62,146 nucleotides of DNA, taken from the IMG/VR virus record IMGVR_UViG_3300021519_000009, positions 1 to 62,146 of that record; one strand, written 5' to 3'. The DNA is from a virus. Positions 47,431 to 58,035 of the stretch are shown here, in pieces. The notes under the pieces were generated by a model. The model did not search any database, was not told where the DNA came from, and saw only the letters and a program-made list of their open reading frames with translations. The translations under genes were made by a program, and so were the position numbers. How positions within the stretch are numbered: the stretch's first letter is position 1; the number at the start of each line of letters is the position of its first letter.

Positions 47431-48378
47431 TTATGTCGAAAGATCATTTTTCCTCTCGCTGTCAATTTCTTTTGATAGCGACTCGACTATTTCAATGCGA
47501 CGGCCTAGCCATCTCATACAATTTACGGCCATTGAGTTACCAAGCGCCACATATCTGTCGGATTCCACATGCCCTGGAATGGCTGTGTATGCATCTGGAA
47601 ATCCTTGCAGCCGTTCGCATTCCATCGGCGTCAGGCGTCTAGCTCCAAAGTCGTCTATAATGACCGGGCGCCTTTGCGCCCGGAGAGTATATGCCACGTT
47701 GGCCGAAAGCCCATCCGGCTCATTAACGTGAGGCTCTAGGGAATAGACTGGTTTCCCAACACTGCCTTCACTTCTGGCGGCAGCTCCTTGTTCTGTTGTT
47801 CGGCTCGGAGCAGGATTTGGCAGCATGCTTTCTTGCTCAAAAAGTACCGATGCAGCGCGTCGCCAGTCTCCAAGATGTCCGACAACGAACACACGCCGGC
47901 GTCGCTGTGGGACAGCTCGCTCAAACCCGTCCACTCGAACGTATTGAGCATCAAGCACTCGGTAGGCGAACCCATACCCGAGTTGGCCCAGACCCCCGAG
48001 GAAGGCTCCAAAATCCCGTCCTTGCCCGGACGACAATACCCCCGGAACATTCTCCCAAATGAGCCATTCGGGGCGATAGCGGTCAGCGATTGCAAGATAA
48101 GTGAGGCAGAGGTTCCCCCGCGGATCATCCAATCCAGCCCGGAGCCCCGTGACGCTGAATGATTGACAGGGCGTTCCTCCGACGAGAAGATTGACAGTTG
48201 CATCGGGCCATTCCTTGAATTTAGTCATGTCGCCCCAGTTTGGAACGTCTGGATAATGATGCGCCAACACGCGAGATGGGAAATCCCCAATCTCGGAAAA
48301 TGCTGCGGGGCTCCAATTCAATGGAGCCCACGCAACACTGGCCGCTTCAATCCCTGAGCACACCGACAGGTACTTCAT
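47431..48378 (-). CDS. C5-cytosine DNA methyltransferase (Dcm type)
   Basis: 315 aa with all main motifs in order: KYLSVCSGIEAASVAW (I), GGTPCQSF with catalytic C71 (IV), WENVPGVLSS with E109 (VI), VPQRRRRVFVVGHLG (VIII), RRLTPMECERLQGFP (IX) and DRYVALGNSMAVN (X). The target recognition region is short. Start at ATG 48378 fits the family N-terminus; the frame is open to 48405. It follows the DGQ-motif protein by one base and probably shields phage DNA from restriction or marks it for regulation. The recognition sequence is unknown. Confidence 0.9.
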   Translation of the reverse strand: MKYLSVCSGIEAASVAWAPLNWSPAAFSEIGDFPSRVLAHHYPDVPNWGDMTKFKEWPDATVNLLVGGTPCQSFSVTGLRAGLDDPRGNLCLTYLAIADRYRPEWLIWENVPGVLSSGQGRDFGAFLGGLGQLGYGFAYRVLDAQYVRVDGFERAVPQRRRRVFVVGHLGDWRRAASVLFEQESMLPNPAPSRTTEQGAAARSEGSVGKPVYSLEPHVNEPDGLSANVAYTLRAQRRPVIIDDFGARRLTPMECERLQGFPDAYTAIPGHVESDRYVALGNSMAVNCMRWLGRRIEIVESLSKEIDSERKNDLST

Positions 48379-48379
48379 T

Positions 48380-49408
48380 TCACAATACGATCGGATATTC
48401 GCCATGCAATTTTTCAGACTGTCGCACCTTCTTGCCCTGGCGCCACAGGTTCCAGTATCGCAAGATCAGTTCCAATTTTTGTTCTCCATAGATCGGGATC
48501 ATAGATGCCTGACTGTAGAGAACCGTCTCGATCAAGGGGCTGTCTTCTTTCCCCAATTCTCGCTTCAATTTTGTTGAAGACCTGACTGTCATGTTTTCAC
48601 TGCGCATTTTGACCTTGATCATGTGATCTCGGAATTGCAGGATTGCATTGCCAGACGCCAAGTTGGCGCCGGTGTCTAGCGCATTAAAAAATTCACTGCA
48701 CGCCTTCTTGTCTTTCTTCGACAAGACCATCCACGCAGTGACTGCCGACGACAATAAATAGCGTCTCACCCACCTGTATTTGATGGCGTTGACGCCTTCT
48801 CCAAGAACGTCTTCATATAATTCGCATTTATCCATCATGTATTGGTTACTGACAACCCCGGATCCTTTACCTCTGGCATATCGACGATCAGGCGAATCGA
48901 TATAATTGATGTAAAGCGCCAAGGCGGCCGCGCATCGTCTCGTCTCGCCATGAGGCCAGCCAGTCGTGGTCATGATATCCGCCAATGTTCGGCTGTCCCC
49001 CTGATCAAATGATCGCATGACTGATCTGGGGTATCCAAACGCGGTCAACGACCAAATTGCCTTCTTCGAGTTCACGGCGGCAGCTAAACGGTTCTGGCCA
49101 TCCATGAGCGTGTCATCATCCGCCAGAACGATTGTCTCGCCATTTTCGATGAACAAATCGTTAATGATATCCTTGGCGTATTTCGCAACTTTCTTTTCAT
49201 GCAGGGGACGATTGTTTGGGTTCTTTTCCGTGTCCAGGTAATGCTTCGCCATTTCGGGCGTCCATTTGATTGGCACCGCAAATCGGCCAATCTTTTTGGT
49301 CAAGTCCTGGTAGTAGTGGATTTCATCCAAAGACCTGTTAAGCACCGGGCGATCAAATTTTTTGATCTCAAGCGCCTTTTGAAGCTTGTCTGAAAACATC
49401 GTAGTCAT
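48380..49408 (-). CDS. DGQ-motif (ParB/DndB-like) protein (342 aa)
   Basis: Contains RPLHEKKVAKYAKDIINDLF and LADDDTLMDGQNRLAAAVNS (about residues 94-113), the DGQ-x-R-L signature of ParB-like/DndB-like proteins that bind DNA ends or modified DNA and sometimes hydrolyse nucleotides. The C-terminal half is helical and unrecognised. It is common next to methyltransferases in phages, but its function is undefined. Located one base upstream of the C5 methyltransferase, so probably co-expressed. AGGAGATGGG precedes ATG 49408. Confidence 0.75.
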   Translation of the reverse strand: MTTMFSDKLQKALEIKKFDRPVLNRSLDEIHYYQDLTKKIGRFAVPIKWTPEMAKHYLDTEKNPNNRPLHEKKVAKYAKDIINDLFIENGETIVLADDDTLMDGQNRLAAAVNSKKAIWSLTAFGYPRSVMRSFDQGDSRTLADIMTTTGWPHGETRRCAAALALYINYIDSPDRRYARGKGSGVVSNQYMMDKCELYEDVLGEGVNAIKYRWVRRYLLSSAVTAWMVLSKKDKKACSEFFNALDTGANLASGNAILQFRDHMIKVKMRSENMTVRSSTKLKRELGKEDSPLIETVLYSQASMIPIYGEQKLELILRYWNLWRQGKKVRQSEKLHGEYPIVL

Positions 49409-51670: not shown

Positions 51671-51698
51671 ATTATAGGCTATGTTGACGGGGTGTCAA
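51671..51698 (-). promoter_or_regulatory. Consensus promoter with palindromic operator (minus strand)
   Basis: On the minus strand TTGACA (51698-51693), 16 bp, TATAAT (51676-51671): the best -10 in the window. It lies at the 3' end of the methyltransferase gene and would drive the genes from 51639 leftward. The -35 is part of a 15-bp palindrome-like site, TTGACGGGGTGTCAA on the plus strand (51684-51698), repeated at 55499-55513. Confidence 0.7.
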
Positions 51699-53010
51699 GC
51701 GTTTCCATCAAGGCTTTGAGAACCTCCGCCGCGAGGACTGGCACGATGGCGTTCCCGGCTATACGCCAAAGATCGACACGGCCTGGGAGTGCGTCGACAA
51801 GCAGATCGGGGCCTAGGACTTTTGTGATGGCTTCTTTTTCTTCCGGCGTAATAGCGCCAAGGTCGTCACCGCCACCCAGCGATCCGGGAAGCCCATCAAC
51901 CAGCAGGCGAAGCCCGGATTTGGTGCGCCGCGCTTTGCCGTCGTGGCAGGCGATCCATTCGGCGTCGGACCAGAAAGAGCCGCTGTCGCCGCCATACGCT
52001 GCACCAATGGAATCCCCGTATCGTGCGGCCGAATAGTCCCGTTGCCCCGCGACGAATCCTGAACCGTCGGCGTCGGCCACGTCGCCGCCATCTGGCGCGG
52101 CAACTGATCCAGGCGCGAACGCCCGTCCTCCCGTTCCGTCGACATGCCGGGGCTGTCCTTCCAGTCGCGCGTCGAGGGCGTCACCCACGTCGCCCTGTGC
52201 ATCTGCGACGGCAGCGGCGTTCCGCCCGCTCCGAAGATCTGGTTCGGTCCGCCCTTCGCTCCGTCCGAGGCTCGGGGTGTTGACCAGTTCGCCAGATGCA
52301 GCATCGCGTTTTCCAAATTCAACTGCGCCTTCGATCCGTCCGTTCGCTTGCGCTGCGTCACCGCTTCCTCGAACGTCATCGTGCGCCCGCCTGTCGGGCA
52401 GTTCGGCGTCGGCCATCGCGCTATTGCCATCGCCGTCTGCAGTGAAATCCCTGTCTTGCTGCGGTCGAATTTTGCAAAATCCGGTCCCGCGTTCGATGAC
52501 TTCGGCGTCGGCCACGGCGCACCAGTAGAGCCGATTGCGGATGTGGGGGGCGTCCACGGCGCAAGCCGGAATATCGTATGCCCAGCAGGTGTAGCCTTCC
52601 GACGCCAGATCAGCGCGGACTCCGTCGAGCCAACCATACCCAGCCGCTCCGCTAACCTGTTCCCCAACGAGGACTCGAGGTCGAACGGCCCGGACCAATC
52701 GAAATAGGTCGGGCCACAGGTGCCGTTCATCAGCAGTTCCGGCCCCTTTGCCTGCTTGCGAGAACGGCTGGCACGGACAGGACGCGGACCAAAGAGGTCT
52801 GTCGTCAGGCCACCCGGCGAGGCGGGCTGCGACGGACCAGAGGCCGCCGCCTGCGAAGAAGTGGGCTTGCGTGTAGTGTTTGATGTCATCTGGATTAATA
52901 TCCTTGATCGAACGGCTTTCTACAATGCCTGGCGCTATGACGTTATGTGCGATCTGTTCTTTCAGGACAGCCACACAAGCCCCGTCAATCTCGTTGTAGA
53001 AGGCTGTCAC
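51679..53010 (-). CDS. C5-cytosine DNA methyltransferase, long phage type
   Basis: 443 aa. N-terminus FYNEIDGACVAVLKEQIAHN then HFFAGGGLWSVAARLAGWPD (motif I), SASCPCQPFSQAGKG with catalytic C80 (IV), GEQV at 116-119 in place of the usual ENV (VI), and APHIRNRLYWCA (VIII). A long variable, Ala/Asp/Gly-rich region with recurring VADA/MADA follows (about 205-370), then the C-terminal GRVDLWRIAGNAIVPVLAAE (X). The start GTG 53010 overlaps the previous stop (GTGA). A second long frame lies inside this gene (51813-52889). Confidence 0.85.
   Translation of the reverse strand: MTAFYNEIDGACVAVLKEQIAHNVIAPGIVESRSIKDINPDDIKHYTQAHFFAGGGLWSVAARLAGWPDDRPLWSASCPCQPFSQAGKGAGTADERHLWPDLFRLVRAVRPRVLVGEQVSGAAGYGWLDGVRADLASEGYTCWAYDIPACAVDAPHIRNRLYWCAVADAEVIERGTGFCKIRPQQDRDFTADGDGNSAMADAELPDRRAHDDVRGSGDAAQANGRIEGAVEFGKRDAASGELVNTPSLGRSEGRTEPDLRSGRNAAAVADAQGDVGDALDARLEGQPRHVDGTGGRAFAPGSVAAPDGGDVADADGSGFVAGQRDYSAARYGDSIGAAYGGDSGSFWSDAEWIACHDGKARRTKSGLRLLVDGLPGSLGGGDDLGAITPEEKEAITKVLGPDLLVDALPGRVDLWRIAGNAIVPVLAAEVLKALMETLDTPST
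51813..52889 (-). CDS. Overlapping frame inside the methyltransferase gene (WPTP-repeat protein, 358 aa)
   Basis: A 358-codon frame on the same strand, one base out of step with the methyltransferase and wholly inside it. It has recurring WPTP-type motifs (PWPTPKSSNA, ARWPTPNCPT, ANWSTPRASDGAKGG, ATWVTPSTRDWKD, ATWPTPTVQD). The DNA unit TGGCCGACGCC reads W-P-T-P here and A-D-A in the methyltransferase frame (plus-strand copies at 52069, 52405 and 52504). I recall database proteins with this pattern, which may be real overlapping products or persistent mispredictions. Start unverified. Confidence 0.4.
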   Translation of the reverse strand: MTSNTTRKPTSSQAAASGPSQPASPGGLTTDLFGPRPVRASRSRKQAKGPELLMNGTCGPTYFDWSGPFDLESSLGNRLAERLGMVGSTESALIWRRKATPAGHTIFRLAPWTPPTSAIGSTGAPWPTPKSSNAGPDFAKFDRSKTGISLQTAMAIARWPTPNCPTGGRTMTFEEAVTQRKRTDGSKAQLNLENAMLHLANWSTPRASDGAKGGPNQIFGAGGTPLPSQMHRATWVTPSTRDWKDSPGMSTEREDGRSRLDQLPRQMAATWPTPTVQDSSRGNGTIRPHDTGIPLVQRMAATAALSGPTPNGSPATTAKRGAPNPGFACWLMGFPDRWVAVTTLALLRRKKKKPSQKS

Positions 53011-53213
53011 TTCACCCGCCCCACAATCCAGTCCTTCGCAGCGCCCAGGCTGTCGGTGTAGGTGATGTCCCCGCCGGCCGTCAGGCAATGATATGCCTGC
53101 CCGTGGCCGACCTTGCGTTGGACCTTCTGGATCCACCCGACGATCTTGCCGAAATATTCGACGTGCCAGATGTTGTGTTCGGCTTCAGTGAGGACGATGG
53201 GGTTCTGAGTCAT
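53007..53213 (-). CDS. Small hypothetical protein (68 aa)
   Basis: Unrecognised; reads like a small KTSC/DUF-type beta protein (HNIWHVEYFGKIVGWIQKVQ then GGDITYTDSLGAAKDWIVGR). GAGGAGCAGGG precedes ATG 53213; coupled by ATGA upstream and GTGA downstream to the methyltransferase. Confidence 0.65.
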   Translation of the reverse strand: MTQNPIVLTEAEHNIWHVEYFGKIVGWIQKVQRKVGHGQAYHCLTAGGDITYTDSLGAAKDWIVGRVK

Positions 53214-55514: not shown

Positions 55515-55698
55515 TCGCCTTCCTCACCTTCGGCGTCAGTCGCTCCATCTGCTCGTGCGTGATCTCGCCCCTCGATGCCCGCACCAGTGCGAACCTGTGC
55601 CGGTGCGGGATCGTATTACGATGTTTCCACTGATGCGCAGTGTAATAATCCACGCCCAGCTTGTCCTGCGCAATCTCGATCACTCGGTCCCAGTTCAT
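55510..55698 (-). CDS. Cro/YdaS-like HTH regulator (62 aa)
   Basis: MNWDRVIEIAQDKLGVDYYT then AHQWKHRNTIPHRHRFALVR: a small helix-turn-helix with the AxxxWKxRxxIP pattern of Cro/YdaS-type regulators. It could bind the twin TTGACGGG sites at 55499 and 51684. Start at 55698 is fixed by the ATGA overlap. Confidence 0.75.
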   Translation of the reverse strand: MNWDRVIEIAQDKLGVDYYTAHQWKHRNTIPHRHRFALVRASRGEITHEQMERLTPKVRKAT

Positions 55699-56192
55699 TC
55701 GCTTACAATCCCCACTCTTTTCTTGCGACGGTTCCATGCAAAGATGGCACCTTCGCGTGTCGTCCAATAAGCCGTTTTGACTTCACAGCCTTCTTCTTCG
55801 CTATTGCCATCATTGGTGCATTTAACCCAGTGGCGCTCCCTGTATCCTGATAAAGGCGAACTGCGTAAATATTTAGCGGCCGAGTAACAAAATGGACAGG
55901 TCTTTAGTCCATCTGGATTCGGGGGCTTTAGGGGCTTTGGTTTTCTGATGATTGGCTGTAAATTATCTGTCGCAAGCCCCAAATCATCCAGCACTTCCAT
56001 GATGTGATTGAGCATTCTTAACCCGCAACCGGGAAGACGCAAAATTGCGGCGCGAGATGATTTTTGAATATCGCCAAGCGTTTCAAACTCTCTCGTCCCA
56101 TAATAGGAATAAGACAGCGAATTTAATGCGCGCGTAGCAAATCCGGCGTCTTCGATTTTGATGTTTGCGTTGTCCATGGCCTTACCTTTCAC
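55695..56192 (-). CDS. Fusion of RNA polymerase alpha-CTD-like domain and Lar-like zinc domain
   Basis: 165 aa. Residues about 20-75 (TRALNSLSYSYYGTREFETL then GDIQKSSRAAILRLPGCGLR and MLNHIMEVLDDLGL) follow the helix-hairpin-helix alpha-CTD of RpoA. Residues about 95-160 (GLKTCPFCYSAAKYLRSSPL ... WVKCTNDG ... EGAIFAWNRR) follow Lar-type restriction-alleviation proteins. The fusion suggests a factor that touches promoter DNA or transcription while countering restriction. GTG 56192 overlaps the GapR-like stop; ATG 56177 (160 aa), with AAGGTAAGG upstream, is an alternative start. Confidence 0.7.
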   Translation of the reverse strand: MKGKAMDNANIKIEDAGFATRALNSLSYSYYGTREFETLGDIQKSSRAAILRLPGCGLRMLNHIMEVLDDLGLATDNLQPIIRKPKPLKPPNPDGLKTCPFCYSAAKYLRSSPLSGYRERHWVKCTNDGNSEEEGCEVKTAYWTTREGAIFAWNRRKKRVGIVSE

Positions 56193-57288: not shown

Positions 57289-58035
57289 TCAAATTCCCCA
57301 AATCTTGTACGCTTCAGCACGCGCGGCTGGGTCTGACCAATAAAAGGAATCAAAATCGGGCACCATCAATGATGCCAGTTCCATCGGGTCGTCGCTGCGC
57401 GCCAAAAACCTCTGGATCGTCATCCCGATCTTCCCCAACGCTTCAACGTGCTGGTCCGCGTTCTCAAGTCGATATGTCGCAACTTTCTTCGGCGTCACAT
57501 ATGTTACGCGCGGGTCGGCATTCCCTCGCGCGGCACGATACAGCGCCACCTGACGCGCGTGGTTGATCGATATCTTCGACGGCAGCGCGTGCGTCGTCTT
57601 GATGTCCGTCAACACGCCATGATCTTCCCATTCAAGGTCGAAGTACCCGATAAAGGGAACTTCCAGTCCCTCGAACTGATACTCGATCTTCCCCTGCGTG
57701 GCCGATGGCTTGCCGTAGGGCAGCAATTCCTTCAGGCCCTGCTCGACCATGCCAGCCAGACCTGCGCGCTCCTTATCAACACGTGGGTCCGTCGTCAGCG
57801 ACACAAGCTTCTCAAATTTCTCACGCGCAACGTCCTGACATTCCTTCAGGCTCGCGCCCGTCATCAAGCCATGCACAATTCCATCTTCAACGGCAGTCCC
57901 ACGATGCGCGGCCGGGCCAACGCTGAACCGTTTCTTCATCAATCGTTCCAATATAAACAGACCCGGCGCGCCAATGAACTGGTTGCAGGCTGATGGAGAA
58001 AGGTGCTTGATGCCGTGCCGTTCGAAGGGGTTCAT
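57289..58035 (-). CDS. RecB/Cas4-like PD-(D/E)XK exonuclease (248 aa)
   Basis: HLSPSACNQFIGAPGLFILE at the start, GTAVEDGI (motif with the N-terminal acidic/His position), VPFIGYFDLEWEDHGVLTDI then KTTHALPSKISINHARQVAL. D in YFDLE and D-x-K in TDIKTTH are the expected metal and catalytic residues, and QVALYRA is the C-terminal helix motif. A 5'-3' exonuclease for recombination, paired with the SSB-like protein. GTTCTC... AGAAAGAGAACCC upstream of ATG 58035. Confidence 0.8.
   Translation of the reverse strand: MNPFERHGIKHLSPSACNQFIGAPGLFILERLMKKRFSVGPAAHRGTAVEDGIVHGLMTGASLKECQDVAREKFEKLVSLTTDPRVDKERAGLAGMVEQGLKELLPYGKPSATQGKIEYQFEGLEVPFIGYFDLEWEDHGVLTDIKTTHALPSKISINHARQVALYRAARGNADPRVTYVTPKKVATYRLENADQHVEALGKIGMTIQRFLARSDDPMELASLMVPDFDSFYWSDPAARAEAYKIWGI

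Follow-up and report, generated by a model that had tools for sequence, protein, structure and literature searches.

Lee, Kam and Shaw reportedly found in 1995 that the small chain of the C5-cytosine methyltransferase M.EcoHK31I, said to be 176 amino acids long, is encoded in an alternative frame inside the large-chain gene, and that both chains are needed for activity. Ordinary C5 methyltransferases have motifs I-VIII, a variable recognition region and motifs IX and X in one chain (PMC3404938). M.EcoHK31I (target YGGCCR) is built from two polypeptides: motifs I-VIII, motif X and a predicted recognition domain are on the larger one and motif IX is on the smaller (PMC3404938). M.AquI (CYCGRG) is a two-subunit C5 methyltransferase that is split otherwise (PMC3404938). 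In ShiLan, an HNH endonuclease is encoded out of frame inside a phage methylase gene (PMC11855218). Here, we analysed a locus on the minus strand of IMG/VR virus record IMGVR_UViG_3300021519_000009, whose whole 62-kb stretch (62,146 nucleotides) is called the window below. A C5-methyltransferase gene (alpha) overlaps there for more than 1 kb with a second open frame carrying W-P-T-P motifs (the WPTP frame, or beta). Computational tests show that the locus is dual-coding. It most probably encodes a C5 methyltransferase split in the manner of M.EcoHK31I, in which alpha is the catalytic chain and beta, nested within it, holds the recognition region and motif IX. Its features, in window positions, are:

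51679..53010 (-): alpha, the C5-cytosine methyltransferase chain, 443 amino acids; its GTG start overlaps the upstream gene's stop codon, and it has motif X and the motifs up to VIII but no IX.
51679-53136 (-): a longer alpha open reading frame (ORF), with a start at 53136 that is less plausible than the GTG at 53010.
51813..52889 (-): beta, the WPTP-frame protein, 358 amino acids, with an ATG start, lying wholly within alpha in the +1 frame.
51876..51923 (-): motif-IX-like C-terminal segment of beta (PNPGFACWLMGFPDRW), from profile comparison and the substitution pattern against the relative L009.
51970..52476 (-): variable region, alpha residues 221-389 (485-amino-acid numbering), predicted to be disordered and overlapping the W-x-T-P repeats of beta.
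52756..52779 (-): alpha catalytic motif IV, SCPCQPFS, read directly and aligned to ordinary C5 enzymes.
51739..51756 (-): alpha motif X, GNAIVP, read directly and followed by a confident helix in the AlphaFold2 (AF2) model.
52901..52905 (-): weak Shine-Dalgarno-like AAGGA, 11 nucleotides before the beta ATG, read directly.
52069..52079 (-): TGGCCGACGCC repeat unit, W-P-T-P in beta and A-D-A in alpha.
52405..52415 (-): the same TGGCCGACGCC unit (W-P-T-P / A-D-A).
52504..52514 (-): the same TGGCCGACGCC unit (W-P-T-P / A-D-A).

An earlier reading made without database searches (the sequence-only reading) had described two open frames at 51813-52889 (-), a methyltransferase start at 53010, catalytic motifs in the methyltransferase frame, and a DNA unit that encodes A-D-A or W-P-T-P depending on the frame. 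All four descriptions held. Both frames are open, the WPTP frame for 358 codons in +1 of alpha; the GTG at 53010 is the better start; a PF00145 match accompanies the SCPCQPFS motif; and TGGCCGACGCC occurs exactly three times in the window (0.08 expected), always on the minus strand and inside the alpha/beta gene, at 52069, 52405 and 52504. The W-P codons of beta (TGG CCG) at 52074-52079, 52410-52415 and 52509-52514 are also YGGCCR sites, the target reported for M.EcoHK31I (PMC3404938), possibly by coincidence. YGGCCR was found 168 times in the window versus 122 expected, a lack of depletion that is neutral as to enzyme specificity.

Similar to the large chain of M.EcoHK31I, alpha has the catalytic motifs and motif X and lacks motif IX, which, at the sequence level only, is found on the second polypeptide, beta. 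The small chain lies out of frame within the large gene in both systems, reportedly so for M.EcoHK31I and in +1 for 272 of 279 loci here. Beta differs in being longer (358 amino acids versus a reported 176) and in its W-x-T-P repeats. It also spans everything from motif VIII to motif IX, whereas in M.EcoHK31I the recognition domain was predicted to sit in the large chain; if the VIII-IX region functions in beta, as the patterns of selection described below suggest, such a large-chain placement may be wrong for the alpha/beta family. The family may work like M.EcoHK31I, to which we liken it by its organisation. With M.AquI it shares a natural split between motifs VIII and IX, but here alpha retains motif X and the two genes overlap out of frame with each other. 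In ShiLan too, a phage DNA methylase gene conceals a second protein in another reading frame; that protein is a mobile HNH insertion of patchy occurrence, whereas beta has no HNH match, overlaps the catalytic region too and is kept in nearly all relatives. We rejected an HNH-type hidden endonuclease as the identity of beta, given that neither beta nor four relatives matched an HNH family in Pfam. A Klebsiella aerogenes plasmid match considered as a possible EaeI system was also rejected, being a fragmentary prophage-like region.

Alpha has the motif IV Pro-Cys-Gln and the fold of a C5 methyltransferase (PF00145, E 1.4e-12; phrog_363, E 1.8e-59), and its model superposes on the M.HhaI structure with Z 15.9 and a root-mean-square deviation of 2.6 over 174 aligned residues, although only about 175 of 327 residues are covered. 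It aligns with ordinary phage C5 enzymes over the catalytic motifs and weakly at motif X. In the AF2 model, the catalytic domain (residues 41-220; core predicted local distance difference test score (pLDDT) mostly 85-97) and the motif X helix are confident, while the variable region scores 31-45 and residues 221-389 and 406-427 lie below 50. The ordinary motif IX pattern was found in none of 138 alpha sequences versus 71 of 81 ordinary C5 enzymes. With this and the predicted disorder of residues 221-389, alpha lacks the motif IX and folded recognition small domain that a single-chain enzyme combines. As a side observation made by eye, a motif I-like FAGxG follows a motif II-like YNEID just before motif IV in the window-type alpha (about 52790-53005, -), and distant relatives of the L053 type with a nested beta (L053, L062 and L076 were compared) have the usual motif I/II order, which suggests that motif I is permuted in the window-type lineage. 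One relative (L060, 1253-3706, +) has an apparent intein inside the alpha Pro-Cys-Gln motif, and its +1 frame is open through the intein, for 818 codons in all.

The C-terminus of beta reads LNPxxxxWLMGxPxxW (PNPGFACWLMGFPDRW in the window), and profile comparison with the ordinary motif IX (RLTPxECERLQGFPDxY) gave E 4.8e-4, a value that none of 60 column shuffles equalled. This motif-IX-like pattern is present in 135 of 138 relatives, and the distance from it to motif X of alpha has a median of 22 codons, compared with 35 between the two motifs in ordinary enzymes. Beta matched phrog_1008 (E 3.5e-29), phrog_27243 (E 8.7e-14) and also phrog_31772 in PHROGs. WPTP-frame ORFs are therefore already present in PHROGs, as phrog_1008; the first two families, labelled ‘DNA methyltransferase’ (phrog_1008) or unknown, differ from our description in making no mention of an overlap or a subunit role. 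Searches of Pfam, NCBIfam and PADLOC with beta gave no match, nor did Pfam with four relatives, and searches of solved structures with beta matched no methyltransferase. The W-x-T-P...D repeats vary from 0 to 5 copies among relatives. Together, an alpha without motif IX and a beta with a motif-IX-like end suggest that the recognition/motif IX part is encoded as a separate +1 protein.

DWKDSPGM and LNP..LM seeded the beta searches, so that their frequencies in beta-fetched loci are biased; the selection tests (shuffling, codon-position conservation) were run on loci fetched with alpha. These were 22 relatives (window counted), 34-69% identical and aligned on alpha, and the null model permuted codons among synonymous positions within each gene. 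The +1 frame was open in 22/22, compared with about 1% of codon-shuffled versions (2-5 stops per gene), and its identity was 0.318 versus 0.216 after shuffling (z 54). By segment, the excess conservation reached z 29-33 inside the +1 ORF and was slight or absent upstream (z -1.0 to 3.6); a weaker excess in the third frame (z 34 overall) is an expected by-product of conserved bases. Upstream of the overlap, the third codon position of alpha was the least conserved, as usual. At beta residues 157-252, position 3 of alpha, which is position 2 of beta, was the most conserved (about 0.49 vs 0.40-0.46 and 0.38-0.40) in a variable-region alignment made on beta, which favours beta, and in the alpha-based alignment too it was better conserved than position 1 over alpha residues 262-281 and 310-329. 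Amino acid identity in the variable region was 0.25-0.32 in the +1 frame versus 0.16-0.20 in alpha. With the converse recoding, synonymous in beta, alpha conservation was barely above that implied by beta at beta residues 142-263 (z 1.4-4.3) and greatly exceeded expectation in the catalytic region (z 24-40). No stops were observed in either frame, with 4-12 expected in alpha when beta was recoded and about 2-5 in beta when alpha was recoded.

Close relatives were compared by an OLGenie-style count over epsilon15-like genes in 35 independent pairs; the set comprised 71 distinct genes, every one with the +1 frame. Substitution distances in the variable region, from pairwise counts that ignore transition bias and handle multiple hits by Jukes-Cantor correction only, were 0.354 for changes that alter alpha and are silent in beta, 0.099 for changes silent in alpha that alter beta, and 0.058 for changes that alter both. 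Changes silent only in beta thus ran at 3.6 times the rate of those silent only in alpha, with omega 0.16 [0.14-0.19] for beta and 0.58 [0.50-0.67] for alpha. Omega was about 0.18 for both frames in the motif IX region, and alpha dominated the catalytic region (omega 0.09; beta ratio 0.38). As a control, the beta ratio outside the overlap was 0.82 [0.63-1.05] upstream and 0.45 [0.30-0.66] downstream, so that the 0.38 of the catalytic region does not differ clearly from the flanking background. The 0.16 of the variable region is distinct from it, as is the inversion there, from about 4 to 0.28, of the ratio of changes silent in alpha that alter beta to changes that alter alpha and are silent in beta (SN/NS). 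In the window's own lineage, a comparison with L009 showed 15 changes in the motif IX stretch, 12 at position 1 of alpha codons, 2 at position 2 and 1 at position 3, so that nearly all are silent in beta; the variable region points in the same direction more weakly (omega 0.46 for beta, 0.82 for alpha).

The beta frame is thus under strong purifying selection at the protein level in the variable region, where the methyltransferase frame is nearly relaxed. The sequence-only reading had offered two options, dual coding or a widely mispredicted shadow whose conservation follows from the enzyme; the former stood, and the latter failed on codon shuffling, codon positions and omega. It had put forward no identity for the second protein. 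The signs of a shadow named there were free substitution in the WPTP frame of close homologues, which was not seen (omega beta 0.16 in the variable region), and a WPTP bias in codon-shuffled methyltransferase genes, which was not reproduced (openness about 1% vs 22/22). In the variable region the supposed dependence is reversed, with the WPTP frame held and the methyltransferase frame mostly a passenger.

Ribosome-binding sites are commoner at beta starts than in recoded genes. Within the first 45 codons of the +1 ORF, a beta-frame ATG with a match of at least 4 nucleotides to AGGAGG at 4-10 nucleotides spacing was found in 71% of 133 genes, versus 18% (maximum 23%) over 100 synonymous permutations, and with a match of at least 5 nucleotides in 40% versus 4%. 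This Shine-Dalgarno sequence is often built from the VDERSI motif of alpha, whose arginine is AGG in 46/112 genes compared with 8% of arginines overall, and many relatives have a GGAG or AGGAG before beta that is better placed than in the window. In more distant lineages, direct reading placed the beta ATG within a few bases of the alpha start (e.g. ATGAATGAG).

Both profiles were found in the +1 relation at 272 of 279 related phage and prophage loci, a set that includes near-identical (redundant) loci. The 7 exceptions were one locus with beta only, on a contig cut near the match (L071), 4 with alpha only under the cut-off used, a shortened contig below both cut-offs (L118), and a decayed symbiont gene whose frames are not in +1 (L201, where the locus is decaying in an endosymbiont). 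Loci fetched by the alpha protein only (L089-L122) also kept the long +1 frame, and their third frame has many more stops. With beta alone as query, tblastn matched 87 phage records, epsilon15 among them (E down to 1e-27), and wherever both proteins were matched, beta lay in the +1 frame of alpha. When 84,980 species genomes of bacteria and archaea were scanned with the beta profile, 80 loci were found (Pseudomonadota, Planctomycetota, Acidobacteriota, Cyanobacteriota, Verrucomicrobiota and Desulfobacterota), and 80/80 of these loci have alpha, overlapping in +1. No clear stand-alone copy of beta was seen among the 279 loci or in this beta-only search of bacterial genomes. Rare broken copies exist: L126 has an in-frame stop in the variable region of alpha with beta intact, and an insertion or deletion in L150 and L189 shifts the frame and joins the alpha N-terminus to the beta C-terminus. 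The original annotators of phage K1ind2 listed both ORFs and named the second ‘Mte8-like’; literature searches limited to open-licence papers found no paper describing the alpha/beta overlap.

Several results weigh against the split-enzyme reading. The motif IX resemblance spans only about 23 residues, the match of a whole-beta profile is weak (E 0.064), and a PDB profile search with the beta C-terminus matched no methyltransferase. The AF2 model of beta alone is poor (mean pLDDT 61), and Foldseek and VIA-align returned only weak, unrelated matches to it, so that we make no claim as to its fold. The beta ATG of the window itself has only a weak and widely spaced Shine-Dalgarno sequence (AAGGA at 11 nucleotides), and in the catalytic region, which covers the first ~120 beta residues, SN/NS is 4.4, control-like and alpha-dominated, meaning that these residues may be largely dictated by alpha. 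An alternative explanation is that beta is a real overprinted protein with an independent role (e.g. anti-restriction, regulatory or anti-defence) and that its motif IX similarity is accidental. Protein-level selection alone is silent on function, and the failure of AF2 and the fold searches to give a methyltransferase fold, and of Pfam and PADLOC to give a family, would suit this explanation. We consider it unlikely: motif IX and the small domain are missing from alpha, a motif-IX-like segment lies in beta close to where it would be expected ahead of motif X, beta was not found without alpha, and M.EcoHK31I provides a precedent.

Two other explanations concern how the WPTP frame is expressed, or whether it is expressed at all. 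Ribosomal frameshifting from alpha would produce, besides full alpha, a fusion of the alpha N-terminus to the beta C-terminus that joins the motifs up to VIII, the recognition region and motif IX; the +1 relation suits a single shift, and the fused copies L150 and L189 show such a joint. The strong over-representation of beta-frame ATGs with a Shine-Dalgarno sequence, and the lineages that start beta within a few bases of the alpha start, make this route very improbable. That the WPTP frame is a shadow ORF with conservation derived from the methyltransferase is hardly credible: the dominance of the alpha frame in the catalytic region and the GC (guanine plus cytosine) richness of the region are as such an ORF would have them, yet codon shuffling did not reproduce the frame, selection in the variable region held the WPTP frame rather than alpha, the flanking controls behaved normally, and even genes with a GC content of 45-55% keep the frame open over hundreds of codons.

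In the split-enzyme reading, alpha (frame 0) would fold into the catalytic domain that binds S-adenosylmethionine and carry motif X, with a mostly disordered linker between motifs VIII and X. Translation of beta would begin at a separate ATG within the alpha gene, in the +1 frame, and beta would bring the W-x-T-P repeat region and the motif-IX-like end. The two chains would then assemble into a complete enzyme in which beta stands in for the target-recognition small domain, and the phage would methylate its own DNA against host restriction. By inference, beta would be produced in this phage, associate with alpha and take part in recognising the target; an anti-restriction role of the enzyme is likewise presumed. 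A further idea, which we regard as doubtful, is that the W-x-T-P...D repeats are modular DNA-reading units and that a phage alters its methylation specificity via the repeats of beta while alpha keeps an open, unstructured linker.

If the split-enzyme reading is true, many genes of phages and prophages that are now annotated as complete cytosine methyltransferases code for half of the enzyme, the other half being absent from annotation or listed as a hypothetical protein, and codon-optimised synthetic copies would destroy beta and seem inactive. The family would then be among the longer and more widespread dual-coding cases in phages, and a known but rarely described kind of split, that of M.EcoHK31I, would here be widespread. 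The regional trade-offs between the frames also offer a good test bed for overlapping-gene evolution.

A second nested frame occurs in the other C5 methyltransferase of the window:

47431-48405 (-): the window's other C5 methyltransferase, with the ordinary form of motif IX in frame (LTPMECERLQGFPDAY).
47736-48203 (-): its nested +1 ORF, 155 amino acids, of a family (..SGMGSPTECLTLNTSEWPSDAAVCSLSDTLETGDVPQRFFLSATACQGILRRAEKRGKELP..) that differs from beta.

This long +1 frame is kept in the window copy and all 80 fetched relatives. At frame-0 residues 212-227, base identity was 0.49/0.76/0.77 at codon positions 1/2/3 and amino acid identity was higher in +1 (0.70) than in frame 0 (0.45); past the +1 stop codon the pattern was normal again. 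This is evidence of selection on this ORF too. The enzyme has its own motif IX, and its nested protein is therefore not a motif IX part; in PHROGs, the ORF had only a weak match (phrog_16143, E 8.6e-5). Among nearby genes on the minus strand, a Lar restriction-alleviation domain (PF14354, E 6.4e-8) is encoded at 55695-56192 and a PD-(D/E)XK nuclease domain (PF12705, E 2e-6) at 57289-58035, both consistent with an anti-restriction neighbourhood.
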